The translations under genes were made by a program, and so were the position numbers. Below, in pieces: positions 6,597-30,979 of a DNA stretch of 64,000 bases. The notes under the pieces are model-generated. The model was not told where the DNA came from. It did no database searches and saw only the letters and a program-made list of their open reading frames with translations. Position 1 is the first letter of the stretch. Every line of letters starts with the position of its first letter. Origin of the DNA: Saprospiraceae bacterium (GTDB taxonomy: Bacteria; Bacteroidota; Bacteroidia; Chitinophagales; Saprospiraceae); the NCBI GenBank assembly GCA_028282725.1, contig JANQHF010000054.1, positions 62,001 to 126,000 of the forward strand, read 5' to 3'.

Positions 6597-6606
6597 TAAA
6601 ATTTAA

Positions 6607-8212: not shown

Positions 8213-8243
8213 ACCCGCATCGTTTTACGGTGCGGGTTTTTTT
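8213..8243 (+). terminator. Rho-independent terminator after susD
   Basis: A ten-pair stem (ACCCGCATCG with CGGTGCGGGT, one G-T wobble) around a TTTTA loop is followed by seven T residues. It separates susCD from the FG-GAP lipoprotein genes. A GTG codon at 8230 lies inside this stem and is not a credible start for the next gene. Confidence 0.9.
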
Positions 8244-8247
8244 ATCG

Positions 8248-11586: not shown

Positions 11587-12151
11587 ATCAAACCTCGTCA
11601 TCATTTTAGCGGCTGTTGCACTGTTACAATGTACTCCCAAATCAGAGTATAAGAAATTAGTAGAAAGAGAGTTGTCTTCGCAAGTAAAAAATGACAGCCT
11701 TTTTCTAGGCACCTACTTCGGAATGTCCTCCAAGGATTTTTACGATCACTGCTGGAAGTTGAACAAGCAGGGACTGATCAGAGAAGGTTCCAATAATACT
11801 ACAGTTTACTATGAAACCGGCGAATTGCCCTATAAGGCAGCCATTGAATTTTATCCCAGGTTTCAGGATGGTAAAATTCAATCGATGACCGGTCATATCC
11901 ACTATAAGGCTTGGGCTCCCTGGAACAGACATTTATGGGCGGAGGCGCTGATTGAAGACGCCAAGAGACTCTTTGAAACGTGGTATGGAGGAAAGTTCAT
12001 TCCCGTCAAATCTCCGGGGTATGGAAAGGCATATGCCAAGGTTGACGGGAATCGGAGAATTTTGCTTTTTTATACAAAGGAAACGAGAATGGAATTCTTA
12101 ATGACCGATTTGACGAACGATGATGAAATTTTTGCAAATCATGTTTTCTGA
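11570..12151 (+). CDS. Small lipoprotein of unknown function
   Basis: A 193-residue predicted lipoprotein. The ATG at 11570 overlaps the end of the preceding FG-GAP gene by 17 bases and gives a signal peptide ending in the lipobox LLQC. The mature part is rich in aromatic residues and has no domain I recognise. Features include LFLGTYFGMSSKDFYDHCW near the N-terminus and a C-terminal half with several basic and aromatic residues. Its stop codon overlaps the start of the next FG-GAP gene (TGATG), so the three genes are translationally coupled. A role as accessory subunit of the giant lipoproteins is inferred from position only. Confidence 0.75.
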   Translation: MKSISKSNLVIILAAVALLQCTPKSEYKKLVERELSSQVKNDSLFLGTYFGMSSKDFYDHCWKLNKQGLIREGSNNTTVYYETGELPYKAAIEFYPRFQDGKIQSMTGHIHYKAWAPWNRHLWAEALIEDAKRLFETWYGGKFIPVKSPGYGKAYAKVDGNRRILLFYTKETRMEFLMTDLTNDDEIFANHVF

Positions 12152-15474: not shown

Positions 15475-15493
15475 ACTAACATATGGGCCAACC

Positions 15494-17419
15494 ATGAAAT
15501 CCTGGATTTGCATAGCTCTCATGCTCGGTGGCATTGCTATCAATGCCCAGGATTTTGAATGTGACGGTGCTGCTTATATAGTTGTTTACGGCCAATCGCT
15601 CGGAAGATCCGTTTTGTATAAGGTAATCCAGCAATCCGATACCAAGTTTGTGTACGAAGCAACCGAATTGTCAGAGACAAGAAGACTGACAGGACTGGCA
15701 TACAATGTACTGGACAAACACCTCTATGCGCTCGATGCCGATACCTACGAATTGATCAGGATTTATAGTGATGGTACATTGGAAGCACTTCGGGTGCCGG
15801 AAAATATAGATTCAACATTGTTATTTAATGCGGGAACCATTTCACCAGACGGTGCGGGTATTTTTTTCTTCGCATATGATCAGGAAAGGGAAGAGGATAT
15901 CAGGTTTTACACCTTGAACCTAAGCAGGGAGAATTTCTACATTGGCTATTTAGGGGTGACCGGTGAAAACCCCGTGAGTATTCATGATTTTGCGACAGAT
16001 CCTACTACAGGACTCATGTATGGATATGACAATAAACAGAACACCCTTGTGCAAATTGGTATAGGAGGGGAGGTAGCTTCATTGAGTTATCCAAATACAG
16101 GAGTTAGCAATATTTCAGGTGTTTTTTTCAACCGGAAAGGAGACTTTTTTGCTTATTCCGCACAACGGGGCATGTATGCACTCAATAAACAAAATGGAGA
16201 AATGCAATTCTTGGGGAAAGGTCCTGAAGGTACTCATGGGGATGCCTGTTCCTGCCCTTATTCTTATCAGTTTGAAAAAGATATCTCACCCCGGAATATA
16301 TTGCCGTGTGAGGAATTTGAAGTGACCTATACCTATATCAATCATTTGGGCATCGGTCAGACCTGGTTAACTTTAAGAGACACATTTCCGGAAGGATTTG
16401 AAATCGTCTCTATCGACAGCGATATATTGTCGAGTATCAATATTGTGGATACATCACCGAATATTCTCGCCCTTGAAAATATCATTTATCTGATGGATAA
16501 AAATGAAATCAAGGTGACCGTCAGGGCTTCAGATGATTTCCAGGAGGATTTTGAAAGTCGTGCAGTTCAATGGGACTTTCCAATTGCCTTTGATGAAGTC
16601 CAGTATTCTGATGATCCTGCCACGATGCTATCGCCGGATCCTACAGCTGCCAGGATCATCCAACAAGACGAGGTGGGTTTTGATAACATGTTATCGGCCA
16701 ATTGTACAGGTGATGCCATTACCATTTCAGCTCCCATTCGAGATGGGAGCTATTCGTGGAGTACCGGGGATACCACTCAGTCTATAGCGGTCAGTGAGCC
16801 GGGCTGGTATTCCCTGAGAGCGGTGAGTGAGTGTGTCATATATTCAGACTCTGTTTTCATCGATGAATTTCCAGGACAGAAAATCGTTTCCATCAGTGGA
16901 TTATCTCAAATTACATTAGGACAGACGATAGAACTAAAGGCCAGTTTAGATCGAGGGAATCCCAGCCATTACCTTTGGTATATTGGCGATGAAGTAATCG
17001 AGTGTGTGGATTGCTCCAGTATAGAAATTTCACCTGCTTCCGACATTACCATTGAACTGGAAGTGGAAGATGATGAAGGTTGTTTGACACTTGCGAGTCA
17101 TGATATCTTCGTTGAAGAAGTAAGATATTTTACCACTCCGAATGCTTTTTCTCCCAACGGAGACGGAATCAATGACCGGTTTTATCTGTCGAGTTCTCTG
17201 AATGGTAAGGCATCTTTACATATATACAATCGTTGGGGAGCCGCGGTATATGAAAATCCAAACTTTCTTTTAAATGATGAAAACAATGGATGGGATGGCA
17301 AATTCAGGGATGAATACTTATCCTCAGGTGTATATATTTGGCTGGCTGAAATAGAATATTTTGATGGTTTTACGGAAAAAAAATCCGGTACAATTACAAT
17401 CTTCTCCAATCGATTGTGA
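15494..17419 (+). CDS. T9SS-secreted protein with gliding-motility-associated C-terminal domain
   Basis: A 641-residue exported protein with signal peptide MKSWICIALMLGGIAINAQ. Residues about 25-260 form a repeat-rich beta domain resembling DUF6923-type propellers (GLAYNVLDKHLYALD, GLMYGYDNKQNTLVQIG). Middle beta-sandwich segments with immunoglobulin or PKD character follow (about 270-540). The C-terminus, about 545-641, is a typical CHU_C/gliding-motility-associated domain: TPNAFSPNGDGINDRF, HIYNRWGAAVYE, NGWDGK and SGVYIWLAEI. This domain directs export by the type IX secretion system and surface attachment. It lies 19 bases after paralogue 2 and 38 bases before paralogue 3, so it probably belongs to the same transcript. 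Its ligand is unknown. Confidence 0.88.
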   Translation: MKSWICIALMLGGIAINAQDFECDGAAYIVVYGQSLGRSVLYKVIQQSDTKFVYEATELSETRRLTGLAYNVLDKHLYALDADTYELIRIYSDGTLEALRVPENIDSTLLFNAGTISPDGAGIFFFAYDQEREEDIRFYTLNLSRENFYIGYLGVTGENPVSIHDFATDPTTGLMYGYDNKQNTLVQIGIGGEVASLSYPNTGVSNISGVFFNRKGDFFAYSAQRGMYALNKQNGEMQFLGKGPEGTHGDACSCPYSYQFEKDISPRNILPCEEFEVTYTYINHLGIGQTWLTLRDTFPEGFEIVSIDSDILSSINIVDTSPNILALENIIYLMDKNEIKVTVRASDDFQEDFESRAVQWDFPIAFDEVQYSDDPATMLSPDPTAARIIQQDEVGFDNMLSANCTGDAITISAPIRDGSYSWSTGDTTQSIAVSEPGWYSLRAVSECVIYSDSVFIDEFPGQKIVSISGLSQITLGQTIELKASLDRGNPSHYLWYIGDEVIECVDCSSIEISPASDITIELEVEDDEGCLTLASHDIFVEEVRYFTTPNAFSPNGDGINDRFYLSSSLNGKASLHIYNRWGAAVYENPNFLLNDENNGWDGKFRDEYLSSGVYIWLAEIEYFDGFTEKKSGTITIFSNRL

Positions 17420-17457
17420 TGGCCGGTCCGTGCAAAGATTATTGAAGAGGTGAACGT

Positions 17458-20400
17458 ATGATGAAAATGCTTTTAATCAGGTTTATTGGAGGATTTGTAA
17501 TCCTTTGTTTGCTATTTGCTTGTGCCACCGGACCCTCAGAGCGTCAGCAAAAAATACAATTTACAGATCTGCCTGCAGAAGAGACGGGAATCACATTTTC
17601 AAATCAGCTGATCGAATCCGATTCTATTAATATCATCAAATACCTGTACTTCTATAACGGTGCAGGAATTGGTGCCGCTGATTTTAATAACGATGGGAAG
17701 ACTGATCTCTTTTTTGCGTCCAACCAGGGAACCTGCAGATTATACCAGAACGATTCAAAGGATGGAACCATGGCGTTCAGTGATATTTCCGAGCAAGCCG
17801 GGATCGCAAATATTTCCGGCTGGAATACTGGGGTGAGTGTCGCAGATGTAAATGGAGACGGCCTGGTCGATATTTATTTGTGCCAGGTGAACTACAATGC
17901 CATTCGCGGGCAAAACAGACTGTTGATCAATAAGGGGAATCAGGGAGGGATACCCGTATTTGCCGATGAAGCACAATTAGTAGGGCTGGACTTCCAGGGA
18001 CTCTCCACCCAAAGTGCTTTTCTGGACTACGATTTGGATGGAGATCTTGATATGTATTTGATGAATCATTCCGTTCACTCTCCGGAAAATTATGCCTATG
18101 CCGAGGTGCGCGAAGAGAGAGTTAATGACGGTGACAGGTTTTACAAAAATGAAAAAGGAACTTTTGTAGACATTACCGATGAAGCCGGAATTTATAGCAG
18201 TCAGATTGGCTATGGTCTTGGTTTAGGTATTCAGGATTTCAACAATGATCAATATCCTGATATCTACGTCGGGAATGACTTTCATGAAAATGACTATTTA
18301 TACCTGAATAACGGGAATGGGACATTTTCAGAAGACCTGGTCAGATTTTTCGGTCATACGTCCCAATTCACAATGGGGATGGACATTGCAGATATCAATA
18401 ACGATGGACACAGCGACATTTTCACCCTTGATATGATGCCTGAGAATGAGGTGGTGAAAAAAAGCTCTGTTCCGAGTGACAACTATGATATCTATCAATT
18501 CAAACACGATTATGGCTATCACTATCAATTGGCCAGAAACAATTTTCAATTAAGTAGAGGACTCGATGCAGATGGCAACCCCCTGTTTTCAGAAGTTGCC
18601 CAACTCCTCGGGGTAGAAGATACGGACTGGAGCTGGTCGGTATTAATGGAGGACTTTGATCAGGATGGGCTGAAAGACATCTTCATAACGAATGGCATCG
18701 TCAGAAGACCTAATGATCTGGATTATCTCAATTACATTTCGGATCCACTTGTACAACGCAATGCACCGGATGCCGAGCTTATTGCACAAATGCCAGAAGG
18801 AGCAGTTCCCAATTATTTTTTCAAAAATCTCGGAAGCCTGCAATTTATAGATCGGTCTTCAACGATTGGAAATAATCTGCCCGGTGTATCAACGGGAGCC
18901 GTTGCCGTAGATCTGGATAATGATGGAGACCTGGATATAGTGACAAACAATATCAATGATAAAGCCACGATTTTGAGAAATCAATCCAATCCCGATCGTC
19001 ATATCTCAATAGAATTAGTTAACGAAGGGCCCAATACACAGTCTCTGGGAGCAGAACTTCAATTCCACATGGGAGGTGAATTGATCACGAGGTCAATTCA
19101 ACCGGTACGTGGATTCATGTCCTCCGCTCTTCAGGATATCAAGGTTGGATTCAATGATGATACGAGGTGTGACAGCATCATTGTCAAATGGCCAGATGGG
19201 ACGAGGCAAGTCGTCAGGGAAATGGAATATAACACGACAATGGAAGTTGTTAAGCGCAGTGCAAACATTAACCGCAATTCAGTGGGGGATGTAGTTTCAG
19301 CCCTTTTCCGGAAAAGAGAAGGACTGGCGAATTTCACCCACGTTGAAAATGAGTACAATGACATGCGGTTTGAAAAAATGATGCCCTGGCTGCTTTCCAC
19401 TCAAGGCCCGGCTCTTGCGGTTGGGGACGTGAATAATGATGGCCTGGAAGACTTTTATATCGGAGGAGCCAGGGGGCAGGCAGGCGCAATGTTTATTCAA
19501 ACAGACGATTCCCGCTTTGTAAAAAGTGATGAAGCTTTCTGGAGCGAGGAAGGTAAGTACGAAGATGTCGATGCCCTGTTCTTTGATGCCGACGGAGATC
19601 AAGATCTGGATCTCCTTGTGGTCAGTGGTGGGAACGACCTGGTTAAGGACTCTCCCTTTTATTTGGACAGGTTATACTTAAATGATGGATTCGGTCAATT
19701 TGAAAAGAACATCAGAAGTCTACCACTTATTACTGAAATCGGATCTTCGGCGAGTGCCTATGATTATGACAAAGATGGAGATCCCGATCTTGCCTTAGGC
19801 ACCCTGGTTGAGGCACGGAGATATGGTTTTTCGCGTGGTGGATTGATTCTTGGAAACGATGGAAACGGAAAGTTTCAGGACGTGACGCGATTTATTGCTC
19901 CTGAACTGATCAATATTGGAATGGTCACGGATATCGAGTGGGCAGATATTGATAGTGACAGCGATTATGACCTTATCGTTGTTGGAGAGTGGATGCCGGT
20001 CACCCTGTTTATTAATAATAAGGGGTTGTTCACCAAACAGGAATTGCCCAATTCCACCGGACTTTGGAGAACGATTGAAATAGTGGATTATAACAATGAT
20101 GGATTGAATGATATCATAGCCGGAAATTTTGGAACGAATACGTTCCTGGCACAAGGAGAGCTCGGTCTGTTGATTTCAGACCACGATGTAAACTCAATCT
20201 TCGAACCGTTGATCTTTTATGGTGATGGAGAGCAGAACTTTCCATTGGCATCACGTGACTTAATCATTAGTCAAATGAATACTTTTCGAAATGTCCATGA
20301 GGATTACAAATCCTTTGCTTCATCAGATTTCGACTCTATGTTTGACCCGGCATCTCCACGTGTGGCCAAACGAATAAAAATCAAAGAGTTGGAATCCTGT

Positions 20401-20751
20401 ATATTTCAAAATAAGGGTAAACTGAAATTTGAAAAGGTATCCCTGCCAAGGGAAGCACAACTCTCTCCTGTTTTCGATGTTGAAATGTTGCATTCGGGTA
20501 CTGAACTGGTCATGGGAGGCAACTTCCATGAAATTGCACCCAACATAGGCAGAAGTGATGCGAGTTATGGTACGGTCTTGCACATCACACCGGATTACGA
20601 ACTTCGGGATGTTCCGATTTCCGAATCAGGCCTGGCCATCAATGGACAAGTCAGGAGCATTAAAAAAATCAACATAGGTTCTGACCAATACTTGATTGTA
20701 GCACGAAACAACCTGGAAATTCAGTTCTGGCAAATCAAGGAATTCCGATAA
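17458..20751 (+). CDS. FG-GAP/VCBS repeat lipoprotein with ASPIC/UnbV domain (paralogue 3)
   Basis: A 1,097-residue lipoprotein and the most divergent of the three paralogues. The signal peptide ends in the lipobox LFAC. FG-GAP/VCBS loops include DFNNDGKTDLFF, DVNGDGLVDIYL, DLDGDLDMYL, DNDGDLDIVTNN and DKDGDPDLALG. An ASPIC/UnbV domain lies at about 524-585 with PVRGFMSS and KWPDGTRQ. The shared framework DTDWSWSVL and the late PREAQLSPVF segment match the other two copies. Two adjacent ATGs (17458, 17461) can serve as start. It ends 24 bases before the convergent DUF3179 gene. It presumably acts with the other surface lipoproteins. Function unknown. Confidence 0.92.
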   Translation: MMKMLLIRFIGGFVILCLLFACATGPSERQQKIQFTDLPAEETGITFSNQLIESDSINIIKYLYFYNGAGIGAADFNNDGKTDLFFASNQGTCRLYQNDSKDGTMAFSDISEQAGIANISGWNTGVSVADVNGDGLVDIYLCQVNYNAIRGQNRLLINKGNQGGIPVFADEAQLVGLDFQGLSTQSAFLDYDLDGDLDMYLMNHSVHSPENYAYAEVREERVNDGDRFYKNEKGTFVDITDEAGIYSSQIGYGLGLGIQDFNNDQYPDIYVGNDFHENDYLYLNNGNGTFSEDLVRFFGHTSQFTMGMDIADINNDGHSDIFTLDMMPENEVVKKSSVPSDNYDIYQFKHDYGYHYQLARNNFQLSRGLDADGNPLFSEVAQLLGVEDTDWSWSVLMEDFDQDGLKDIFITNGIVRRPNDLDYLNYISDPLVQRNAPDAELIAQMPEGAVPNYFFKNLGSLQFIDRSSTIGNNLPGVSTGAVAVDLDNDGDLDIVTNNINDKATILRNQSNPDRHISIELVNEGPNTQSLGAELQFHMGGELITRSIQPVRGFMSSALQDIKVGFNDDTRCDSIIVKWPDGTRQVVREMEYNTTMEVVKRSANINRNSVGDVVSALFRKREGLANFTHVENEYNDMRFEKMMPWLLSTQGPALAVGDVNNDGLEDFYIGGARGQAGAMFIQTDDSRFVKSDEAFWSEEGKYEDVDALFFDADGDQDLDLLVVSGGNDLVKDSPFYLDRLYLNDGFGQFEKNIRSLPLITEIGSSASAYDYDKDGDPDLALGTLVEARRYGFSRGGLILGNDGNGKFQDVTRFIAPELINIGMVTDIEWADIDSDSDYDLIVVGEWMPVTLFINNKGLFTKQELPNSTGLWRTIEIVDYNNDGLNDIIAGNFGTNTFLAQGELGLLISDHDVNSIFEPLIFYGDGEQNFPLASRDLIISQMNTFRNVHEDYKSFASSDFDSMFDPASPRVAKRIKIKELESCIFQNKGKLKFEKVSLPREAQLSPVFDVEMLHSGTELVMGGNFHEIAPNIGRSDASYGTVLHITPDYELRDVPISESGLAINGQVRSIKKINIGSDQYLIVARNNLEIQFWQIKEFR

Positions 20752-20775: not shown

Positions 20776-21825
20776 TCAGCCGTCGTAAATTTCAATACCC
20801 GGATAAAAAGATGGCCACGAAAACCAAAATCCGATCATAGAGACCGGTTTTGATAGACTCGCCCCTTTATCCGGACCTTCTATGATCTTACCGGTCAGGT
20901 CATACAAGTTTTTCTTCGAATCGATCATGATTGCGGGAAGCTTGTCTGAAAGACCCTGGAAATTCAAACGGTCCGGATTCAAAAATGCAGTATTATAATT
21001 ATCATCTGCAGATCGCACGACGACAATGTCAATATCTTCAATAACATCATGAATTACTTCTGTTCCTGAACCTTGCTCATTAAATCGATAAGCCCTCGCT
21101 GATTGATTGATCAGGACGCTTAGTACCCTTTCCTTCGGATGTAGTCTGGCATCCGTTATAGCCACAGGAAAAAGTAGTTGATCATTGGTTCGGTAAGACC
21201 CATATGGATATATCGAATAGCGTCGGTCAAACCCGGTATTTCCATTCATGATCTTGGAATCAGGGAATGACTTTTTCCAGGTGGCAAGCGTGGTTTCTAT
21301 AAGAATGAAGGTCTTTGGTACGTCCCCGATTCGCGACCCGTTGACGCACTCCATTCTTTGTTGAGACCAGGTACTGTTCGTTCGACGATCATATGGCATC
21401 AGATTGGAATTGTACAAGAGCCCGGACACTCCAAAAGTGAATACCCTGCTTCCGATTTGACGCTCCCATCCAATGGCTGTCCCTGTAAGTGGGCAATACA
21501 TTATGGCGATTGCAAGATCATCAATTTTATCATTTACGATTTCGTGCCAATCGAGAATGGGGATGGGGTAACCGTGCAACTCCCCATTGTATTCAATTCC
21601 GACGACTAATTCATCATCAAAGAAAGAACTCACATCTTTTGCCTGATCAAATTGTGGATTGTCAATTGAAGGGATTCCATCCTTTCCGGGCCCTCCATTC
21701 AACACCTCGTCCTTCGGAACCAGCCAGTCCTTTATTTCCGGTGGATTGACCAATGCCCCATCTGTTTCTGTGTCATTGCTACAACCGATCAAAAAGAATG
21801 CAAGTAAAATGAACAGGATCTTCAC
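20776..21825 (-). CDS. DUF3179 domain lipoprotein
   Basis: A 349-residue lipoprotein of the DUF3179 family. Recognisable stretches are VGIEYNGELHGYPIPILDWH (about 74-93) and the family-defining IMYCPLTGTAIGW (about 107-119). Both available starts are GTG. The GTG at 21825 gives a compact signal peptide, KILFILLAFFLIGC after the initiator; the GTG at 21891 would add 22 polar residues in front and is less likely. DUF3179 has no established activity. Its cysteine in the conserved CPLTG motif has suggested redox or ligand roles, but that is unproven. It is convergent with the FG-GAP cluster and divergent from the DUF1080 operon. Confidence 0.85.
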   Translation of the reverse strand: MKILFILLAFFLIGCSNDTETDGALVNPPEIKDWLVPKDEVLNGGPGKDGIPSIDNPQFDQAKDVSSFFDDELVVGIEYNGELHGYPIPILDWHEIVNDKIDDLAIAIMYCPLTGTAIGWERQIGSRVFTFGVSGLLYNSNLMPYDRRTNSTWSQQRMECVNGSRIGDVPKTFILIETTLATWKKSFPDSKIMNGNTGFDRRYSIYPYGSYRTNDQLLFPVAITDARLHPKERVLSVLINQSARAYRFNEQGSGTEVIHDVIEDIDIVVVRSADDNYNTAFLNPDRLNFQGLSDKLPAIMIDSKKNLYDLTGKIIEGPDKGASLSKPVSMIGFWFSWPSFYPGIEIYDG

Positions 21826-22028
21826 GGTGTAAATCTTTACCTGTTTCAAGAATAGTCCATTTTTAAAACTATCATACGAATTATCTGGCACATAAATATA
21901 AACTGTCTAAATCATGACAGCACCAAACATTACCTGGGGCATTCTGCTCCATCGAGATTTAGGAGAGAGCTATCAAATACCATATCTTGCAAATCACTTA
22001 TTGACCATCCATTTTCAAGTTGACCATA

Positions 22029-23873
22029 ATGATTTTAGTCCGGACCTTCCTAGTATTGTTTTCCCTTTCGATCATAGCTACTTCCTGCCAGGTGGATCGA
22101 CCTTCCGGGGAGGAGATAGATGATGAGGTTATTTCGGAGTTTCTTCCCTTACATGAAGTTTCTTTCTCGGATCTTTCTTCATTTACGTCCGCTGGTGAGA
22201 ATTGGAAGGTGGTCAGTAAGGTCGTTTCAGATTTTCATAAAGACTGGCATTTTGAATCGGAAGAGGGTGCTGGCATCTTGTTGAACAATGTCTCCGATGA
22301 AGGACGACGAGATGAAATGAACGCTGCACAGGGTGAACATTTATTTACCAATTTCGAACATGGTGATATCCAATTGGAAGTGGAAGTCATGGTTCCCAAA
22401 GAATCCAATTCAGGAATATACTTTCAAAGCAGATACGAATTACAGATCAGGGAGACTTCCGGGGATGCCGATGTCACATCAGATGACATGGGTGGAATAT
22501 ATGCAAGATGGGAAGATCCGGACATTCGTGAGAAGGCCATTGGCGGAAGTGCACCTGCAATCAATGCTGCCCGTGCTCCCGGCCTCTGGCAACAATATCA
22601 GGTACTGTTCAGGGCGCCGGGATTTGATGAACAGGGGAATAAAATAGAAAATGCAAGATTTGAATATGTTTACCTGAACGGTTATAAGGTACAAGATAAT
22701 GTTGAAGTCGCTGGTCCTACCATTGAATCACCACACAGTGATGAGGTAGCTATGGCACCAATAATGATACAAGGAGATCACGGACCCGTGGCATTTAGAA
22801 ATTTGAAAGTTAAAATATTTGAAAGTGAACAACCTTCACTGGAAAACATATCTTATAAGTTATACAAAGGGCAATTTGATTTTATTCCTGATTTTTCAAC
22901 ATTGGAAGTCGCCGAAGAGGGAAACATTGAAAACTTTGATGACCTGACCAAGCTTGCCGGACAGAATGATGGATTTTGTATTGTATTTGAAGGAGACCTT
23001 ACTGTTCCCAAGGATGGGGAGTATTTGTTTGAAACCAATATCGATGACGGCGGAGATCTCTTTATAAATGATGAACTCGTCATTCATAACCAGGGAGAGC
23101 CGGGAGGAGGAGTTGAAAGAGGATTGACCAATTTAATGCAGGGCCTACACAAGATTCGGCTGACCTATTACCAGGAAGTCTGGGCAGCATATGTAATATT
23201 AAAAATTGAAGGACCCGGCATTGAGAAAATGGAATTGCCTGTATTGAAAGAACCAAAACCTGTACCGGCATGGGCGAGACCCAGACATTTAGAAATTGAA
23301 GTAGGGGCAGAGCCTGAATTAATCCGTGGGTTCGTGGATCATTTCGATACGAAGAAGACGCATATTCTTTCGGTAGGAACACCCCAGGGTGTGCATTATA
23401 GCTACGACACCAGAAATAATGAATTGATCAATTTATGGAAGGGAAAGTTTGCTGATGTAGGCGAAATGTGGATCAACCGGGGACAATCGCAGAGATTGGA
23501 TCCATTAGGTGCTGAACTTGGATTGGAAGAAAATAACCAAAACAAAAATTGTCTTGCAAAAGGATATCGCCTGGATGGAGATGGCATTCCTGTTTTTAAC
23601 TATGAATGTAACGGGATTTCAATTTCGGATAAGACTAGCCCTTCACAAAAGGAAGGTATAGTCGAAAGGTCCATTTCTGTAGACGACGGTAAGTTTAAAT
23701 ATACAATCGCCTCCGATAATCAAATTGATGAAATGTCTGAAGGATGGTATTCAATTGGAGGTCGTTATTATTTAAGACCATTGAACCAGGGTGCAGACTG
23801 GAATGTCTCCAATGGTCAGATCAGTGTCGATATCACAAAATCCTCAATGTTGGCTTATGAAATCTATTGGTAG
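22029..23873 (+). CDS. DUF1080 (3-keto-disaccharide hydrolase-like) and PA14 domain lipoprotein
   Basis: A 614-residue lipoprotein with signal peptide ending IIATSC. Residues about 30-265 form a DUF1080 concanavalin-like domain, with SNSGIYFQSRYELQI and the late FRNLKVKIFE strand. Proteins of this family include 3-keto-glycoside hydrolases. Residues about 272-400 are a PA14 carbohydrate-binding domain (DGEYLFETNIDDGGDLFIND). The last 200 residues hold a domain also seen in large multidomain redox proteins, with RGFVDHFDTKKTHILSVGTP and a WINRG motif. The ATG at 22029 is preferred to a TTG nine bases upstream. It ends 10 bases before the cupredoxin-dehydrogenase gene, so the two form an operon. 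Confidence 0.85.
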   Translation: MILVRTFLVLFSLSIIATSCQVDRPSGEEIDDEVISEFLPLHEVSFSDLSSFTSAGENWKVVSKVVSDFHKDWHFESEEGAGILLNNVSDEGRRDEMNAAQGEHLFTNFEHGDIQLEVEVMVPKESNSGIYFQSRYELQIRETSGDADVTSDDMGGIYARWEDPDIREKAIGGSAPAINAARAPGLWQQYQVLFRAPGFDEQGNKIENARFEYVYLNGYKVQDNVEVAGPTIESPHSDEVAMAPIMIQGDHGPVAFRNLKVKIFESEQPSLENISYKLYKGQFDFIPDFSTLEVAEEGNIENFDDLTKLAGQNDGFCIVFEGDLTVPKDGEYLFETNIDDGGDLFINDELVIHNQGEPGGGVERGLTNLMQGLHKIRLTYYQEVWAAYVILKIEGPGIEKMELPVLKEPKPVPAWARPRHLEIEVGAEPELIRGFVDHFDTKKTHILSVGTPQGVHYSYDTRNNELINLWKGKFADVGEMWINRGQSQRLDPLGAELGLEENNQNKNCLAKGYRLDGDGIPVFNYECNGISISDKTSPSQKEGIVERSISVDDGKFKYTIASDNQIDEMSEGWYSIGGRYYLRPLNQGADWNVSNGQISVDITKSSMLAYEIYW

Positions 23874-23883
23874 AGAGTTTGAT

Positions 23884-25866
23884 ATGATTGGACAAATGAA
23901 TCATCTGTATCAATGCTCCATCCTTGGGTTATTCGTATTTCTCAATATTGTCTCCTACGCGCAGACGGATATAGATAAAAAAGAATCCGAATTCTATCAA
24001 ATTTCTACCTTGCCCATTCCTGAGGGAATCGTATTAGAAGTTGGTGGATTGGCATTTGATAATTCTGGCAAGCTTGGTGTTACTTCGAGGCGGGGTGAAC
24101 TCTGGGTAATTTCTGATCCGTCAAGTACAAGTCCAAAATTTGAAAGATTCGCTCAGGGATTACACGAACCGCTTGGCCTGGCATTCAGAAATGGGTCATA
24201 CTACCTGGCACAACGTGGAGAATTGACCAAAATTACTGATACGGACAACGATGGCAGGGGAGATCGATTTGATAATATTTACACCTGGGATCTTGCGGGT
24301 AATTACCACGAATACGCTTACGGGCCTAAATTTCTGCCCAATGGAAATATGTTGATTAATCTCAATCTAGGTTGGGTAGGTCGTGGTGCAAGTCTCTCTA
24401 AGTGGAGTGGCTGGATGCTTGAAATTTCAGAGAGCGGAGAAATGACGCCTGTTGCAACTGGCATGCGCTCACCTGCGGGGCTTGGTTTCAATGCAAACGG
24501 GGACATTTTTTATACGGAAAACCAGGGAGACTGGGTTGGCTCGGGGAGAATGACACATATAGAAAGAGGGGACTTTGTAGGCCATCCTGAAGGACTCAAA
24601 TGGTCCGGAGAGCCAGGCTCACCATTGTCATTGGGTATGGAAGATGTAGTCATCGAGGAAGAAACTACCCTGTATGATTACGCACAATCCACTACGGAAT
24701 TAAAATCCCCGTCGATATGGTTTCCACACACGCTTATGGGAATATCAACTTCAGATATTGCAGTGATACCGGGCAATTGGGGTCCTTTTACGGGTCAATT
24801 ACTTGTCGGTGACCAGGGGCACAGCAAGATCATGCGTGTAGTCCAGGAAAAGGTCAACGGAGTGTATCAGGGCATTTGTATTCCATTCAAGGAGGGGTTT
24901 TCTTCAGGGTTGCTCAGAATGGAGTGGGGCGATAACGAAACGCTCTACGTTGGAATGACCAACCGGGGTTGGGCCTCCACGGGCAAAGAACCTTTTGGCA
25001 TTCAAAGATTGAACTGGACTGGATCTACTCCATTTGAAATGCAGGATGTCAGGATACAACCGAATGGATTCACAATCACATTTACCAGGGAAGTTGACCG
25101 GCGCACAGCTGCCGACCCGGATTCCTACGCCATTACCGATTTCAATTATAAGTACCATCATTTATATGGGAGTCCACCGATCAATCAACAGGAACGAACG
25201 GTCTATAAAGTGGAAGTGGCACGGAATAACAAAAGTGTACGTCTCTATGTAGAAGGGCTTCGGTTAGGATACGTCAATGAAATCAAACTTACCGGGGTAC
25301 GATCAGCCGATGATCAGGAATTACTTCATAATACCGGCTATTATACGATCAATCAAATTCCGGAGGGAGCACAGACAGAGGCACCGCCGACAGCAGTCTC
25401 AAATGCAGACCATGCACAGCACACGATATCCGATGACTATGCAGAACGACCATCGGCCAAACGAATAACTGAAATGCCGTCATCCTGGATCAATGGGCCT
25501 GATGTTACCCTCGAAATCAAGGCAGTCGCAGGTATGCTATACGACAAACGCGTTCTGAAGGCAAAACCCGCAAGCAAGATCAAGCTCGTCTTTGATAACC
25601 CGGATGATATGGTTCACAACTTTCTTCTGGTCAATCCCGGAACAGCAGATGAAGTCGCCCAACAAGCTATGGAACTAGGATTGAGAGGGGAAGAAATGGG
25701 ATTCATCCCTCCATCCGACGATGTGTTATATCACAGTGCTTTGTTAAGACCCAATATGAGTGATATTATCTATTTTGAAGCTCCTGCCACACCGGGACGA
25801 TATCAATATGTTTGCACTTTTCCGGCCCACGCTGCCACAATGAGAGGGATTTTGATCGTGAAGTGA
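23884..25866 (+). CDS. Exported beta-propeller dehydrogenase fused to a C-terminal cupredoxin domain
   Basis: A 660-residue secreted protein. The ATG at 23884 (or 23896) gives a signal peptide ending VSYAQ. Residues about 35-410 resemble the glucose/sorbosone dehydrogenase-type propeller found in multidomain proteins of Bacteroidota and Planctomycetota (GLAFDNSGKLGVTSRRGELW, TDNDGRGDRFD, GMRSPAGLGFNANGDIFYTE). The last ~125 residues are an azurin/auracyanin-like cupredoxin. The histidine of MVHNF and the C-x4-H-x4-M cluster in VCTFPAHAATM are the four type-1 copper ligands. The fusion suggests sugar or alcohol oxidation with electrons passed to copper in the periplasm. Upstream in-frame ATGs inside the preceding gene would not give a signal peptide. 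Confidence 0.85.
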   Translation: MIGQMNHLYQCSILGLFVFLNIVSYAQTDIDKKESEFYQISTLPIPEGIVLEVGGLAFDNSGKLGVTSRRGELWVISDPSSTSPKFERFAQGLHEPLGLAFRNGSYYLAQRGELTKITDTDNDGRGDRFDNIYTWDLAGNYHEYAYGPKFLPNGNMLINLNLGWVGRGASLSKWSGWMLEISESGEMTPVATGMRSPAGLGFNANGDIFYTENQGDWVGSGRMTHIERGDFVGHPEGLKWSGEPGSPLSLGMEDVVIEEETTLYDYAQSTTELKSPSIWFPHTLMGISTSDIAVIPGNWGPFTGQLLVGDQGHSKIMRVVQEKVNGVYQGICIPFKEGFSSGLLRMEWGDNETLYVGMTNRGWASTGKEPFGIQRLNWTGSTPFEMQDVRIQPNGFTITFTREVDRRTAADPDSYAITDFNYKYHHLYGSPPINQQERTVYKVEVARNNKSVRLYVEGLRLGYVNEIKLTGVRSADDQELLHNTGYYTINQIPEGAQTEAPPTAVSNADHAQHTISDDYAERPSAKRITEMPSSWINGPDVTLEIKAVAGMLYDKRVLKAKPASKIKLVFDNPDDMVHNFLLVNPGTADEVAQQAMELGLRGEEMGFIPPSDDVLYHSALLRPNMSDIIYFEAPATPGRYQYVCTFPAHAATMRGILIVK

Positions 25867-26277: not shown

Positions 26278-27408
26278 TTATAACCCCATATTGCCCAAGT
26301 CTAAAGGAATTTTCTTACCTCCTTCTTTGATCGACTGATAAATCGCTTCGACAATAATCATATCACGTTTGCCCATTTCACCAGGGATAAGATTTGGCGC
26401 ATCATGAAGTATGTGTTTGGCAAAGTCGTCCATTTGAAGTTTCTGCTGTCTTTCATGCGGGAAGTCCCAGTTTCTATTGTCTGAAGAACCGCCAGCCAGA
26501 GGACCGTAGTGATTGGCGGGATTGAGTTCTACCCAACCGTTTTCAAAATTAGAATAGTGCCGGTTAATATTCACATTGTGTGAAGTCATGATATTTCCAG
26601 TAGCACCATTTGGAAATTCAAATTGTGCCGTGATCGTCTCATCCGTGTCTTTGAAATACTCAGGACGAGTACTGAATTCCTGGGCACTTACTGAAACTGG
26701 ATTCATTCCGGATCCGTATATAGCACTTTGAATTGAGTAAACACCCATGTTCATCAAAGCTCCGCCTCCGGCCAGTGCTTTGTTCAATCTCCATTGACCA
26801 GGATTACTCCCGGAATAATATCCGGCATCTGCTGTCACGTATCGCACTTCACCAAAGTCTTTTTTGTGAACAATGCTCTTTAATTCCCGGGTGTAGGGTT
26901 CAGAATGCAAACGATATCCTACTCCTAACTTCACCTTTGCCTTTTTACACGCATCAATAATGGCGTTGCATTCGGAGACATTCATTGCCATGGGTTTTTC
27001 ACAGATAACGTGTTTGCCTGCATTGGCTGCACGGATTGAGAATTCTGCATGCATTGAGTTAGGTAAAACGACATAAACAATGTGGATGTCAGGATTCTCT
27101 GAGATTTTGTCAAAATTCTCATAATTGTATATGTTCTCCTTTGGAATATCATACTTGTCTGACCAGGTTTTTTCTTTTTCCGGAGTTCCGGTAACGATTC
27201 CGGCTAGATAGCAATACTGAGTTTGTTGTAATGCAGGAGCGAGCTGATAAGTGCTGTAACTGCCCAGGCCGACAAGAACAATTCCCAACTTTTGATTGGG
27301 GGTGATAGGTCCAAGGGTAGCACGTGCAGCATTGAATGGTCCCGCAAGGACAAAACTTCCTGCTCCTCTAATCAGCAGATTGTTAAAATCTCTTCTTGAC
27401 TTCTTCAT
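26278..27408 (-). CDS. Gfo/Idh/MocA family oxidoreductase, Tat-exported
   Basis: A 376-residue NAD(P)-dependent sugar oxidoreductase. The N-terminus KKSRRDFNNLLIRGAGSF carries a twin-arginine motif (SRRDF), so the folded cofactor-bound enzyme is probably exported to the periplasm like glucose-fructose oxidoreductase. The Rossmann motif is IVLVGLGSYSTYQLAPAL (about 44-61). The family motif HVICEKPMAMNVSECN (about 132-147) contains the EKP lysine-proline. It is the last gene of a four-gene reverse operon (amidohydrolase, DUF1080, barrel, oxidoreductase), starting 29 bases after the barrel gene. Enzymes of this family make or reduce 3-keto sugars, which fits the DUF1080 protein in the operon. 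Confidence 0.9.
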   Translation of the reverse strand: MKKSRRDFNNLLIRGAGSFVLAGPFNAARATLGPITPNQKLGIVLVGLGSYSTYQLAPALQQTQYCYLAGIVTGTPEKEKTWSDKYDIPKENIYNYENFDKISENPDIHIVYVVLPNSMHAEFSIRAANAGKHVICEKPMAMNVSECNAIIDACKKAKVKLGVGYRLHSEPYTRELKSIVHKKDFGEVRYVTADAGYYSGSNPGQWRLNKALAGGGALMNMGVYSIQSAIYGSGMNPVSVSAQEFSTRPEYFKDTDETITAQFEFPNGATGNIMTSHNVNINRHYSNFENGWVELNPANHYGPLAGGSSDNRNWDFPHERQQKLQMDDFAKHILHDAPNLIPGEMGKRDMIIVEAIYQSIKEGGKKIPLDLGNMGL

Positions 27409-27437
27409 ATAAAAAACTTCAATCCTTTAGGAGTCGA

Positions 27438-28139
27438 TCACAGAATCCTGTACGATCCGTGAATTGACATAAAATAATTTCGCAAAAACCTGCTTTCCCG
27501 TTCGGCTGTGGAAAGAGGGCCTGGAGGGATATATCCCTCATTTTGATAAAACCGCGTCAGTCCAAAATTGTATCTCCATATGATTGCTATCCGTTTTCCA
27601 ACTGTGAATCCGAGACCTCCGATCAGACCGAATTCATTCTTATTAAATTCTGTGACAATTTTCTGATACACAGTTCCTTCAAATTGTGAAGGAAGACGTT
27701 CGGTAATATCAGTTGATGCCAACCTTCCATATGAACCTCCAACTTCGAGAAAGGATCCTCTTTCCGGATGATTCAACATTACCTTTAGCAAGATTGGTAC
27801 ATCAATGTAATTGAGACGTATATTCCGGTCATTGGTGGTCTGTGCAGTCACTCTTGTACCGTGGGGGATCTTTGATCCTTTCTGGTTATAGAGCATCCCA
27901 ACTGAAAGTCTCAAATGAGAAGTCATCAACGCGTTTACCTGCAATCCTGCTGAATATCCACTTTGATCCCATCCTGTAAAGTAGTCTCCGTCGATTTGGG
28001 AAATATTGAAACCTGTCATCAGTTCAAGCTCAAATCTGTGATCCGGACGTTGAGATTTCCTGCTTCTTTGAGCCGCGATGTCAGATGCAGAGCAAAGAAC
28101 AGTTATAATCAGTACATAATATTTGATGCAGTGGTTCAC
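27438..28139 (-). CDS. Outer membrane beta-barrel protein (PorT-like)
   Basis: A 233-residue exported protein. The GTG at 28139 lies two bases after the DUF1080 stop and gives the signal peptide NHCIKYYVLIITVLCSASDI ending in a cleavage site at AAQ. A TTG at 28160 is a longer alternative. The mature part alternates polar and hydrophobic residues and has typical barrel-domain stretches: FELELMTGFNISQIDG near the start, GYSAGLQVNALM, YIDVPILLKVML and FLEVGGSYGRLAS. This matches the outer membrane protein beta-barrel domain family (PorT/OmpW-like, 8-10 strands). Its role in the operon is unknown; a pore or envelope component for the sugar pathway is inference. Confidence 0.8.
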   Translation of the reverse strand: MNHCIKYYVLIITVLCSASDIAAQRSRKSQRPDHRFELELMTGFNISQIDGDYFTGWDQSGYSAGLQVNALMTSHLRLSVGMLYNQKGSKIPHGTRVTAQTTNDRNIRLNYIDVPILLKVMLNHPERGSFLEVGGSYGRLASTDITERLPSQFEGTVYQKIVTEFNKNEFGLIGGLGFTVGKRIAIIWRYNFGLTRFYQNEGYIPPGPLSTAERESRFLRNYFMSIHGSYRIL

Positions 28140-28141
28140 AT

Positions 28142-28981
28142 TTATAATTCTCTGATCCAAATATTCCTAAACCGGACTTTGTCACCGTGATCCTGTAAAA
28201 GTAATGGCATTTTTTCCGGATGTTCAACATAGTATGGCTTTCCGATAAATATACATGGACCTTCAAGCAAAACATTGTTTTGAATCAATACGCCATTGTG
28301 TAATACAGTGGCGGATGCCGGTCGCACTACCTCTCCATTTTCAAATTTCGGGGCATTGAAGATGATATCATAAGACTGCCATTCACCCGGCGGCCTTGAA
28401 GCGTTCACCAATGGAATATGTTGTTTGTAGAAGGCACCTGCCTGGCCATTCGGATAAGTTTGATTTTCATAAGAATTTAAAACCTGGATTTCATACAGCC
28501 CCATCAGAAATACCCCACTGTTGCTGTATGCCTGGTCTTCTTTACCTGGATCGACAGGGCATAAAAATTCAATGTGGAGTTGGATACTTCCAAAGGCTTT
28601 GGCTGTTTCTATGGCTCCTCCACCCGGGGTCACGATCATTGTTCCATCCTTGACCTCCCATTTGGGGTCAGTTCGTTGGTCATTATCTAAATCTTGTGAT
28701 TTCAGTTTGATTATTGCCTCTACCTGGTCCATCCGGGCACCGTAATCATATCGTGGTTTGCGCCATTCCGACAGGTCCGATCCATCAAACAGAATAATGG
28801 CATCAGAAGGTGCCGACGAATAAATACCCGGGACCACCTTCCCCGGGATGGGTCTCCACTTCTCGGTGGCAGACCACGGTTTTGTTTTTTGCAGTCCTAC
28901 CCAGTCAATCTGTGGCACTTCTTGTGCGCCGACGTATTCGATAAAAAACATCGCAGTTATACAAATGAATATTTCTTTCAT
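28142..28981 (-). CDS. DUF1080 domain protein (3-keto-disaccharide hydrolase-like)
   Basis: A 279-residue exported protein consisting mainly of a DUF1080 domain. The start at 28981 gives the signal peptide MKEIFICITAMFFIEYVGAQ. An upstream ATG at 29023 overlaps the stop of the amidohydrolase gene as ATGA and may support translational coupling. Family motifs include IILFDGSDLSEWRKP (about 60-74), IQLHIEFLCP, SNSGVFLMGLYEIQVLNSYE and the closing DHGDKVRFRNIWIREL. Characterised relatives hydrolyse 3-keto glycosides or their eliminated products. The mature enzyme would act in the periplasm beside the Tat-exported Gfo/Idh/MocA oxidoreductase of the same operon. Confidence 0.9.
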   Translation of the reverse strand: MKEIFICITAMFFIEYVGAQEVPQIDWVGLQKTKPWSATEKWRPIPGKVVPGIYSSAPSDAIILFDGSDLSEWRKPRYDYGARMDQVEAIIKLKSQDLDNDQRTDPKWEVKDGTMIVTPGGGAIETAKAFGSIQLHIEFLCPVDPGKEDQAYSNSGVFLMGLYEIQVLNSYENQTYPNGQAGAFYKQHIPLVNASRPPGEWQSYDIIFNAPKFENGEVVRPASATVLHNGVLIQNNVLLEGPCIFIGKPYYVEHPEKMPLLLQDHGDKVRFRNIWIREL

Positions 28982-29019
28982 AATACTTGTATTTTTGGTT
29001 CTTTTTGATAGCAAATTTG

Positions 29020-30354
29020 TCATTTAATTCTTTTGCCGTGCTTGATGACCATGTCAACATCCTGTAGCAGTGAAATCCATCTCAACACATCACCTTTCAC
29101 GGCAATGATGTCGGCATATTTTCCTTCACTTATCGTCCCGTAGTCAGCATCGACACCCATGGCCTTAGATGGCCAGTATGTGGCCGCTTTAATGGCATAC
29201 ATGGGATCTATTCCAAATTCGTTTACCCATACATCCAACTCATTCCAGGTGGACTGGCAGTGAAATTTCATGGGGATTCCACTATCTGTCCCAATCAAAA
29301 GAACGACTCCTGCCTCAATAAGCTGCTTTACTTTTCTTTCGAGGGTCGGTCTGCGACTCGGTGTGAGTTGAAAATAAGGGAGTCTGCCCGGGTATTGAAT
29401 GGATGCTTCGATATCATTTATGATCTTCTGTGGAAGTCCATCGTGCCAGCAGTCATTGTCCAGTTTCTCAGGATTGTCTCGTACATATTCGTAATTGTAC
29501 AAACCTTCAACGGTCGGCGTCCAATACAGAGGGCCGATATTCATTTGGGCGGTTCGCTCTTTGATCATCTCCATAACGTCCGCAGGATATTCCGGAGCAG
29601 AAGAAAGACCGGTATGTTCGAAACAATCCACACCTGCAAGAAGCCCCCGTCGGATTTCCTCAGGTCTGTGACTATGAGCCACTACGGTCAAATTGTGTTG
29701 GTGCGCCTCGTCAACAACTGCCTTTACCTCTGCCATAGTCATTTGATCCTGGTCGATCAACTTGATACAATCTACACCTGCTTCGGCCAGACTCTTGACT
29801 TTTCGCCTGGCATCTTCTTTTCCGGTTACACCCCATCTGAATGCTTCAGTGCCAGGATAAGGAGCATGTTGAATAAAAGGTCCTGACATGTACATGGTGG
29901 GGCCGGGGATCTCTCCATTATTGATCCGATCCCTGATTTCAATACTTGCATCCAGGGGAGCACCCAGGTCACGGGCGCTTGTAATCCCCGCTTTTAAAAG
30001 TTGTAATGCGCTCGCCGGCATAATGATATCGGCAAATTGATCAATATATGCAGTATCCCAGTGCGCATAGTCACTATGACCCGTGATCATCAGGTGTACA
30101 TGCATATCCCAGAGCCCGGGTAGGACGGACATGCCATCTGTGGATATAACCTCTGCTTCCCCGGGTATCGCGGTGTTGCCTTGATGACCAACTTTGACAA
30201 TTCGGTCCCCTTCGATGATAATGACACTATTGTGGATGGGTTTGCCTCCAAACCCGTCTATAAGAGTGCCACCTACCAATGCTTTTGTTTGGCTGTATGC
30301 CAAAAAGTAATGACAAATAAGTAGGAAGGTGAAAGTTGCTTTGATTTTCCTCAT
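29020..30354 (-). CDS. Exported amidohydrolase (imidazolonepropionase-like)
   Basis: A 444-residue metal-dependent hydrolase. The start at 30354 gives a signal peptide (RKIKATFTFLLICHYFLAYS). Conserved amidohydrolase features are LPGLWDMHVHLMITGH (about 75-90, HxH metal ligands), CIKLIDQD (about 195-202), VVAHSHRPEEIRRGL (about 225-239), CFEHTGL and the late LIGTDSGIP (about 355-363). Related enzymes are secreted prolidases, dipeptidases or lactonase-like hydrolases; the substrate cannot be read from sequence. It is the first gene of a four-gene reverse operon, and its TGA overlaps an ATG upstream of the DUF1080 gene. Just upstream begins the tandem repeat array. Confidence 0.9.
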   Translation of the reverse strand: MRKIKATFTFLLICHYFLAYSQTKALVGGTLIDGFGGKPIHNSVIIIEGDRIVKVGHQGNTAIPGEAEVISTDGMSVLPGLWDMHVHLMITGHSDYAHWDTAYIDQFADIIMPASALQLLKAGITSARDLGAPLDASIEIRDRINNGEIPGPTMYMSGPFIQHAPYPGTEAFRWGVTGKEDARRKVKSLAEAGVDCIKLIDQDQMTMAEVKAVVDEAHQHNLTVVAHSHRPEEIRRGLLAGVDCFEHTGLSSAPEYPADVMEMIKERTAQMNIGPLYWTPTVEGLYNYEYVRDNPEKLDNDCWHDGLPQKIINDIEASIQYPGRLPYFQLTPSRRPTLERKVKQLIEAGVVLLIGTDSGIPMKFHCQSTWNELDVWVNEFGIDPMYAIKAATYWPSKAMGVDADYGTISEGKYADIIAVKGDVLRWISLLQDVDMVIKHGKRIK

Positions 30355-30399
30355 TTGATCAGATATTAGTCTGTGACCTGGTATAAATCTACAGATAAA

Positions 30400-30979
30400 T
30401 TCACCAGGGATCATACAGACGACTACAGAAACAAGTCATGTGAGCGATGCTCTGTGCAAATCCGTGTTCATCTGTGGTGCAAAAGATAGTGCAGTATTCA
30501 CCAGGGATTACACAGATGGCCACCGAATCAGTCATGTGAGGGATTAATCTGTGCAAATCCGTGTTCATCTGTGGTGCGAAATAACTGGATAGTCCACCAG
30601 GGATTACACAGATGGCCACCGAAACAGGCATGTGAGGGATTAATCTGAGTAAATCCGTGTTCATCTGTGGTGCAAAAGGTAGTGCAGTATTTACCAGGGA
30701 TTACACAGATGGCCACCGAAACAAGTCATGTAAGCGATGCTCTGAGTAAACCTGTGTTCATCTGTGGTGAAAAAGGTAGTGCAGTATTTACCGGGGATCA
30801 TACAGACGACTACAGAAACAAGTCAGGTGAGGCATGATCTGTGCAAATCTGTGTTCATCTGTGGTGCAAAAGATAGTCTAGAATCCGTCACGGATTACAC
30901 AGATGGCCACAGAATCAGTCATGTGAGCGATGCTCTGAGTAAACCTGTGTTCATCTGTGGTGCAAAGGGTAGTGCAGTA
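30400..30979. repeat. Tandem array of six ~97-bp repeat units
   Basis: Six contiguous units begin at 30400, 30497, 30593, 30690, 30787 and 30884, each 96-97 bases, with no spacer between them. Two subtypes occur. Units 2, 3, 4 and 6 contain GATTACACAGATGGCCAC. Units 1 and 5 contain GATCATACAGACGACTAC instead. Most units can fold, because CACAGATG near the start pairs with CATCTGTG near the end. The array breaks off at 30980 with a six-base stub (TTCACC) and resumes at 31551. Related CACAGAT/ATCTGTG repeats occur, from memory, between genes in many Bacteroidota genomes. Short reading frames within the units are by-products of the repetition. Confidence 0.93.

Follow-up and report, generated by a model that had tools for sequence, protein, structure and literature searches.

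A putative secreted two-subunit dehydrogenase with a built-in copper domain, encoded by a conserved gene pair in a Saprospiraceae bacterium

In the PQQ sugar dehydrogenase sGDH, the likely base is His144, assisted by Arg228 (available sections of PMC6881810). The pyranose dehydrogenase CcPDH has its propeller joined to a cytochrome domain, and its host does not make PQQ (available sections of PMC6881810 and PMC4332668). Among DUF1080 proteins, BT2157 hydrolyses 3-ketotrehalose, and another one, near LacABC, was proposed as a 3′-ketolactose hydrolase (PMC9007349, in excerpt). DUF1080 and CBM66 calls overlap (PMC5673643, in excerpt). The only wet-lab result that we found near the propeller family discussed here is that of Lac161_ORF7, a TIGR02604-HEAT-cytochrome protein with which glucose was released from lactose in functional metagenomics (PMC5342196, in excerpt). 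We attach little importance to it, since a GGDEF-domain protein is credited with similar activity in that paper. The literature searched, outside which most subscription journals fall, contained no study of the gene pair described below, of DUF6797 or of DUF7133, and the pair appears not to have been studied before. An alternative pathway for glycan breakdown was reportedly described in a 2024 Nature paper.

The window, i.e., the whole 64,000-nucleotide stretch that was analysed, carries two adjacent genes on the plus strand, both located where a preliminary description had placed them. Gene 1 (22029–23873, 614 aa) encodes a DUF1080 or 3-keto-disaccharide hydrolase-like domain (22245–22814, residues 73–262), a putatively glycan-binding PA14 domain (22857–23210, residues 277–394) and a C-terminal domain that we call WKG (23256–23870, residues ~410–614). 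Its product is a putative lipoprotein or secreted protein, with Cys20 following a hydrophobic N-terminus. Gene 2 (23884–25866) starts at ATG 23884 or ATG 23896; from the latter, from which its residues are numbered here, it encodes 656 aa with a signal peptide. A mechanical ORF call also offers GTG 23791, an unlikely start that overlaps gene 1 by 83 bases. The gene 2 product consists of a six-bladed propeller nearest to PQQ aldose sugar dehydrogenases (23986–25023, residues ~31–376), an Ig-like beta domain (25024–25365, residues ~377–490), which comes after the propeller in nearly all relatives, and an auracyanin-like type-1 copper domain (25495–25863, residues ~534–656). The ten bases between the gene 1 stop codon (23871–23873) and ATG 23884 fit the expectation that the two genes share one transcript, as they probably do. 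Promoter-like matches were at chance level only.

The keto-glycoside-hydrolase-like and PA14 domains had been proposed beforehand, and both are above their profile cut-offs with folds that agree. PF06439 matches residues 73–262 of gene 1 with an E-value of 1.4e-23 (84.3 bits, cut-off 26.8), and PA14 (PF07691) matches residues 277–394 with 1.6e-14 (54.4 bits, cut-off 24). In the fold search, the DUF1080 domain is close to 4qhz (Z 21.2, rmsd 2.8, 184 aligned) and to 3osd, which is BT2157 (Z 17.3, rmsd 2.8, 174 aligned), and the PA14 domain to 6qe7 (Z 15.4, rmsd 2.3, 128 aligned). The residues conserved in stand-alone DUF1080 members are retained (E137, Q139, N217, D250 and H251), and the usual Asp142 of the family is a Glu.

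The propeller is harder to place. DUF7133 (PF23500) scores 19.2 bits on it against a cut-off of 27 and TIGR02604 20.8 against 122.2; GSDH (PF07995) has no match at E≤1 in the gene 2 product, which also contains no CxxCH motif. Relatives come closer: 41 of 43 match DUF7133 at E≤1, with two above the cut-off (L036, 30.2; L034, 27.2), five match GSDH weakly (best 8.3e-5) and two match SGL weakly. A sequence search for solved relatives returned only designed, NHL and other propellers via short blade motifs, so a fold search was needed. The gene 2 structure model (pLDDT 90.9) has its propeller closest to PQQ aldose dehydrogenases (Z 27.7–29.5, rmsd 2.6–3.1, 286–299 aligned). Unrelated propellers score lower (lactonases and DFPase Z ~23, Diels-Alderases 24.6), and neither sGDH itself (Z 23.5) nor AA12 (Z 23.5–25.0) does better than these. 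On the model, the aldose dehydrogenase subgroup alone thus stands out among solved folds, and the dehydrogenase-type propeller proposed earlier, below the sequence cut-offs, is clear by fold.

The copper domain likewise bears out what had been suggested for it, since all four type-1 ligands are present (H574, C640, H645 and M649). Copper-bind (PF00127) scores 26.5 bits against a cut-off of 21.2, the best solved relatives are 6kol, 1ov8 and 2aan (the auracyanin fold), and the azurin equivalog TIGR02695 reaches 28.1 bits against a cut-off of 105.1. The His, Cys, His, Met set is retained in all 37 cupredoxin domains found in relatives.

The preliminary description had made the hypothesis depend on the pair being conserved in other genomes, and it is. 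Of the 50 distinct loci in Bacteroidota that carry a WKG domain, 49 have the propeller gene adjoining on the same strand. A phylum-wide draw, unbiased in that its loci were found by the WKG domain alone and all were fetched, gave 34 loci in 27 of 296 genomes, with the propeller gene adjoining in 33. In the phylum of an Opitutae genome, the propeller gene adjoins in all 12 loci fetched from at least 13 matches that cover the C-terminal domain (G539:C18 was left out). Judged from these genomes the gene pair is widespread. In a single locus, L100, gene 1 is present and the propeller is not. L030, on the same contig as L027, is excluded from the adjacency, carrier and residue counts; the frames of L162 and L163 overlap or are broken, and contig ends cut gene 2 of L153 and gene 1 of L126. 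Fusions also occur. An Opitutae protein holds DUF6797 (8.1e-14), propeller and cupredoxin in a single chain, and 11 Saprospiraceae-group proteins of ~1225 aa fuse a WKG-like N-terminus (profile E 4.6e-8), one CxxCH, PA14, propeller and DUF1080. The trees of gene 1 and gene 2 agree (r 0.82, permutation maximum 0.37), which may reflect shared descent only.

Because the propeller gene adjoins so regularly in both phyla, the WKG domain of gene 1 is, as far as gene order tells, the propeller's real partner. W470 is conserved in 61 of 61 pairs, W481 in 59 and R484 in 57. The domain is, on profile evidence, a distant relative of DUF6797 (PF20601), which matches 14 of 42 gene 1 relatives weakly (best 7.8e-4); in the profile search the window's own gene 1 product had no match. 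A structure comparison of the whole gene 1 chain gave no rows for the WKG domain. Its relatives confirm the earlier suggestion of a domain of redox proteins in the final 200 residues of the gene 1 product. Comparison of these loci shows the WKG domain and the propeller-Ig unit to be the conserved core.

An electron carrier accompanies this core in 59 of 61 pairs; the remaining two pairs are truncated or broken. In Bacteroidota, the end of gene 2 carries a cupredoxin in 32 cases and a cytochrome c in the same place in 15, and in two the cupredoxin is in gene 1. In the second phylum (12 of at least 13 matches), the carrier is in gene 1 and is a cupredoxin in two, a monoheme cytochrome in three, a pentaheme cytochrome in five and unassigned in two. 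A quick tree of the propeller, in which 16 of 58 inner branches are open, implies at least seven carrier changes among five states and at least five between copper and heme. By this comparison the carrier is interchangeable: it is a cupredoxin or a cytochrome c with one or five hemes, it sits in either gene, and copper appears as one of several options.

Two propeller residues, His138 (24307–24309) and Arg191 (24466–24468), are invariant in all 61 pairs. Judged by profile alignment and not by superposed coordinates, they occupy the sGDH catalytic motif positions, matching the GSDH-type His and Arg. The PQQ-holding residues mapped in this way were the His, the Arg and the adjoining Asx position; the Asn/Asp beside the sGDH Arg is a Ser in 61 of 61 propellers. 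No pqqC above the cut-off was found in the 18 pair-bearing genomes or in the 296 Bacteroidota genomes. Sub-cut-off relatives in 23 of the 296 indicate that the search can see relatives, though it had no true positive control. Imported PQQ is compatible with this absence, and the cofactor might be PQQ taken from outside.

We put at roughly 0.6 the probability that the genes encode two subunits of one secreted dehydrogenase, periplasmic or on the cell surface. Most likely, this one secreted enzyme would pass electrons from a sugar-like molecule to its built-in copper domain, or in relatives to a heme domain. The active site would be held in the propeller, where a sugar or glycoside would be oxidised with His138 and Arg191 assisting. 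The WKG domain would cover or shape the active site, or dock the carrier, and single electrons would move to the copper in the C-terminal domain of gene 2 and from there into the respiratory chain. PA14 might hold a glycan, and DUF1080 might cleave the oxidised (3-keto) glycoside. The preliminary description was partly right; its redox module, with a dehydrogenase-type propeller and a copper domain of its own, is supported. Its 'self-contained' sugar oxidation is an inference, because pqqC was not found and 3-keto-sugar pathway genes are near few pairs.

How far DUF1080 belongs to the reaction separates two of the other readings. A redox-linked 3-keto-glycosidase, in which the propeller oxidises the glycoside C3, DUF1080 cleaves the 3-keto-glycoside and the copper takes the electrons, is possible, weakly supported, and in our estimate rather doubtful. 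It would explain a DUF1080 domain that is above its cut-off, retains the family residues and is nearest in fold to 3-keto-glycoside enzymes, and that occurs in most Bacteroidota gene 1 proteins (PF06439 at E≤1 in 41 of 42 aligned members). A convergent module at 26278–29023, which contains a Gfo/Idh oxidoreductase and a further DUF1080, points the same way. The roles given to BT2157 and to the LacABC-adjoining DUF1080 (PMC9007349, in excerpt) also favour the 3-keto-glycosidase. However, DUF1080 is missing from gene 1 of L043 and L125 and was not found in eight of the 12 second-phylum gene 1 proteins (of at least 13 matches), and is therefore not part of the core; the view of DUF1080 as the defining partner is not supported, as several pairs lack DUF1080 and PA14 yet keep WKG, propeller and carrier. 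Further, sGDH-type enzymes oxidise C1, and Gfo/Idh genes are near only three of 61 pairs and stand-alone DUF1080 genes near five (a small set of seeds, with flanks that differ in length), a weak clue to the pathway. That DUF1080 and PA14 are only glycan-binding modules, by which a C1 aldose dehydrogenase is held on its polysaccharide, we think unlikely. CBM66 structures do match the DUF1080 domain (4azz, Z 12.7, rmsd 3.5, 152 aligned), the two calls overlap elsewhere (PMC5673643, in excerpt), and PA14 is lost in five loci (L109, L112, L119, L122 and L124); yet 3-keto enzymes and other DUF1080 structures outscore CBM66 (Z 17–21), and the residues conserved across stand-alone proteins are retained.

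The remaining readings concern the propeller and its carrier. Six-bladed SMP30/DFPase/lactonase propellers match too (Z ~23), and with the weak SGL matches in two of 43 relatives they would suit a lactonase or other hydrolase whose carrier serves something else. We regard this as improbable given that PQQ aldose dehydrogenases are ~5 Z higher and that a carrier constant in presence and variable in kind fits a redox step. There is a similarly small chance that the carrier feeds the propeller for a reduction, or that the copper domain stores or senses copper: sequence gives no direction of electron flow, and copper binding by cupredoxins can serve other purposes, but c-type hemes at the same place argue against a copper-specific role in the family.

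Going beyond the secreted dehydrogenase itself, we tentatively suggest that WKG/DUF6797-type and propeller subunits might make up a widespread and so far undescribed family of two-subunit secreted oxidoreductases, with this pair as its copper branch. The cofactor site formed by the two subunits might not hold PQQ, or not only PQQ, and the family's carrier, whether blue copper or one or five hemes, might follow the host respiratory chain; with DUF1080 attached, such an enzyme might perform oxidative, redox-linked glycoside cleavage outside the cytoplasm. If the proposed dehydrogenase is right, the unnamed C-terminal WKG domain and many propeller proteins of the DUF7133/DUF6797 type in environmental bacteria would gain a function class, and extracytoplasmic sugar oxidation would be linked directly to respiration in organisms seemingly unable to make PQQ. 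There would also be naturally occurring versions of one enzyme coupled to copper, to one heme or to five, in which carrier choice and direct electron transfer become testable, with sugar electrodes as a possible use.

Compared with known systems, gene 2 shares the six-bladed propeller and, by profile alignment, the His and Arg motif positions with the PQQ sugar dehydrogenases (2ism, 3a9g, 2g8s, 3das; Acinetobacter sGDH), from which the pair differs in having two subunits, a fused carrier, a Ser after the Arg, no usable GSDH match and a PQQ that is putative. The fungal AA12 pyranose dehydrogenases (CcPDH, TrAA12) resemble gene 2 in their PQQ-type propeller, whereas their carrier is a heme b cytochrome, unlike the window's copper domain. 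We know of no AA12 enzyme with WKG, DUF1080 or PA14. The PVC-type heme-binding/DUF7133 proteins (TIGR02604, PF23500) have a related propeller, and some carry a cupredoxin (same genome, L046, L047), but their architecture, with ThuA and HEAT, is different. Auracyanin and azurin have the same four-ligand copper domain as gene 2, but are mobile proteins, whereas that of gene 2 is fused to an enzyme. Finally, BT2157-type DUF1080 enzymes share fold and conserved residues with the gene 1 domain; they stand alone, the Caulobacter one near the LacABC dehydrogenase (PMC9007349, in excerpt), whereas that of gene 1 is tied to a propeller-carrier partner.

Both open reading frames of the gene pair were confirmed at the positions assigned to them in the preliminary description. 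Gene 1 (22029-23873, forward strand) encodes 614 aa and matches two Pfam profiles, DUF1080 (PF06439; 84.3 bits, cut-off 26.8) and PA14 (54.4 bits, cut-off 24). The remaining ~200 residues have no Pfam name, and we call them the WKG domain after their W-K/R-G-x-F motif. Gene 2 begins ten bases or slightly more past the gene 1 stop, with a likely start at ATG 23884 or 23896 (residues are counted from the latter), and ends at 25866. It encodes a propeller, an Ig-like tail, and a copper-binding domain that scores above the Pfam cut-off and holds all four type-1 ligands previously claimed for it (H574, C640, H645, and M649). The genome is 5.06 Mb in 139 contigs, and a Saprospiraceae MAG carries a gene 2 copy that is 73% identical. 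No study of the pair turned up in searches of an open-access paper collection.

Conservation argues for a real and ancient pairing. When the final 211 gene 1 residues were searched against 60 genomes (its own and relatives up to order), they were found at 15 places in 12 genomes, and a propeller gene adjoins all 15. The WKG domain occurs in 27 of 296 evenly drawn Bacteroidota genomes. This draw added 34 loci to the places already known, all retrieved, and the propeller gene lies directly downstream on the same strand in 33. At the sole exception, L100, the gene 1 homolog (5441-7707, reverse strand) matches DUF1080 less well and is followed by a thioredoxin-like ORF. In a second phylum, that of an Opitutae genome, 123/194 genomes match the gene 1 profile somehow, mostly by DUF1080 or PA14 alone; at least 13 of the matches listed cover the C-terminal domain, and the 12 retrieved all have an adjacent propeller gene. 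Conservation elsewhere, which the preliminary description left to be checked, holds in that phylum and at 49/50 Bacteroidota loci (counting L043, found via its propeller).

The WKG domain (W470 in 61/61), the propeller, and its Ig-like tail are constant across pairs. PA14 is absent at five loci (L109, L112, L119, L122, and L124), DUF1080 was undetected in L036 and in 8/12 second-phylum gene 1 proteins, and L043 and L125 are without both. The module first described, a DUF1080-PA14 protein plus propeller, stands as a pairing, but not with DUF1080 and PA14 as fixed parts.

The electron carrier is replaceable. In Bacteroidota pairs gene 2 ends in a cupredoxin 32 times and in a CxxCH-bearing cytochrome c 15 times, and in two pairs the cupredoxin sits in gene 1. 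The carriers assigned in the second phylum lie in gene 1: two loci have a cupredoxin there, three a single heme site, and five a set of five heme sites, while two of the 12 loci are unassigned. The gene 1 proteins with five CxxCH motifs and a WKG domain (L156-L159, L164) are apparently the same enzyme core wired to a pentaheme cytochrome. A quick tree of the 61 propellers, with some weak branches, requires at least seven changes among five carrier states and at least five between copper and heme. The His-Cys-His-Met ligands are kept in 37/37 cupredoxin domains. That copper and heme replace each other at a single place is the strongest indication that this domain carries electrons.

The same parts also occur fused. 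An Opitutae protein (L028) joins DUF6797 (8.1e-14), propeller, and cupredoxin in a single 860-aa chain, and 11 proteins of ~1225 aa from relatives (L048-L058) contain an N-terminal domain, one CxxCH, PA14, propeller, and DUF1080. Because these parts are found both fused and separate, the two gene products may form one complex. By profile comparison the N-terminal domain of L048-L058 is related to WKG (probability 95%, E 4.6e-8). The WKG domain is itself a distant relative of DUF6797: 14/42 WKG members match DUF6797 weakly (best 7.8e-4), the window member has no match to its Pfam profile, and direct comparison of the WKG profile with four DUF6797 proteins was weak (probability 57%). The window genome also encodes a one-chain paralog of the pair, a 900-aa cytochrome c-DUF6797-propeller protein (L045:8448-11150, reverse strand). 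A second copper-fused propeller family is found there on contig C1 (L046:5545-8880 and L047:6284-9772), with two 1100-1160-aa proteins containing ThuA, DUF7133, and cupredoxin in differing orders.

Alignment-based structure prediction gave confident models of both products (pLDDT 89.3 for gene 1, 90.9 for gene 2). Gene 1 residues 35-265 match the DUF1080 structures 4qhz (Z 21.2), 9fbe, a 3-keto-glycoside eliminase/hydratase (Z 19.0), and BT2157 (3osd, Z 17.3), and the next stretch, 272-406, resembles PA14 domains (Z 15.4). The gene 2 copper domain has an auracyanin-like fold. The closest folds to the modeled propeller (residues 33-375) are PQQ-dependent aldose sugar dehydrogenases (2ism, 3a9g, 7cgz, 2g8s, 3das; Z 27.7-29.5, rmsd 2.6-3.1 over 286-299 residues). 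Diels-Alderases gave Z 24.6, lactonases, SMP30, and DFPase Z near 23, and the PQQ enzymes sGDH and AA12 just 23.5 and 23.5-25.0.

H138 and R191 are invariant in 61/61 propellers, as are E109, D115, S192, R314, and Q325. In a global profile alignment to 16 GSDH-type proteins from the same genome group (probability 99.1, E 6.7e-18; second half poor), R191 lines up with their Arg, the NQGDW loop with NGRDW, and the stretch around H138 with their HHGWKYIAFGPD motif. PMC6881810 gives His144 of sGDH as the likely base, assisted by Arg228. PQQ is a possible cofactor, since imported PQQ serves other organisms; the paper cited above notes that fungi and E. coli have PQQ enzymes although they do not make PQQ. 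Three findings speak against an ordinary PQQ enzyme: the Ser after the Arg, where sGDH has Asn/Asp, the poor GSDH match (none for the window protein, weak in 5/43 relatives), and pqqC, which reached cut-off in 0/18 pair-bearing and 0/296 Bacteroidota genomes. PqqC relatives, mostly full-length, score below cut-off (47-77 bits vs. 240) in 23 Bacteroidota genomes, e.g., L151, and are presumably another branch of the PqqC superfamily.

A LacI gene (2451), SusC (3528), and SusD (6607) precede three large FG-GAP/ASPIC-UnbV proteins and a CHU_C protein (8230-20751, forward strand), a PUL-like setting. A DUF3179 gene (20776-21891, reverse strand; E 5.2e-79) is divergent from the pair. PA14, DUF1080, and the PUL-like setting point to glycans. 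The gene 1 DUF1080 retains the residues conserved in stand-alone DUF1080 proteins, and it could therefore cleave a 3-keto-glycoside. A convergent module (26278-30414, reverse strand) encodes a Gfo/Idh/MocA oxidoreductase whose N-terminus is twin-arginine-like, an outer-membrane-type protein of 240 aa, a stand-alone DUF1080, and an amidohydrolase; the last three also adjoin the pair in L027/L030, which share a contig. However, such pathway genes lie near few pairs (Gfo/Idh 3/61, stand-alone DUF1080 5/61, from few seeds and flanks of unequal length), and we therefore treat 3-keto-glycoside cleavage as a rather doubtful rival, not as the main claim.

The best reading, to which we give a probability of about 0.6, is that the pair forms a secreted dehydrogenase of two subunits whose electron carrier is modular. 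In its proposed working it would resemble a PQQ sugar dehydrogenase fused to its carrier, with membership in the PQQ family putative.
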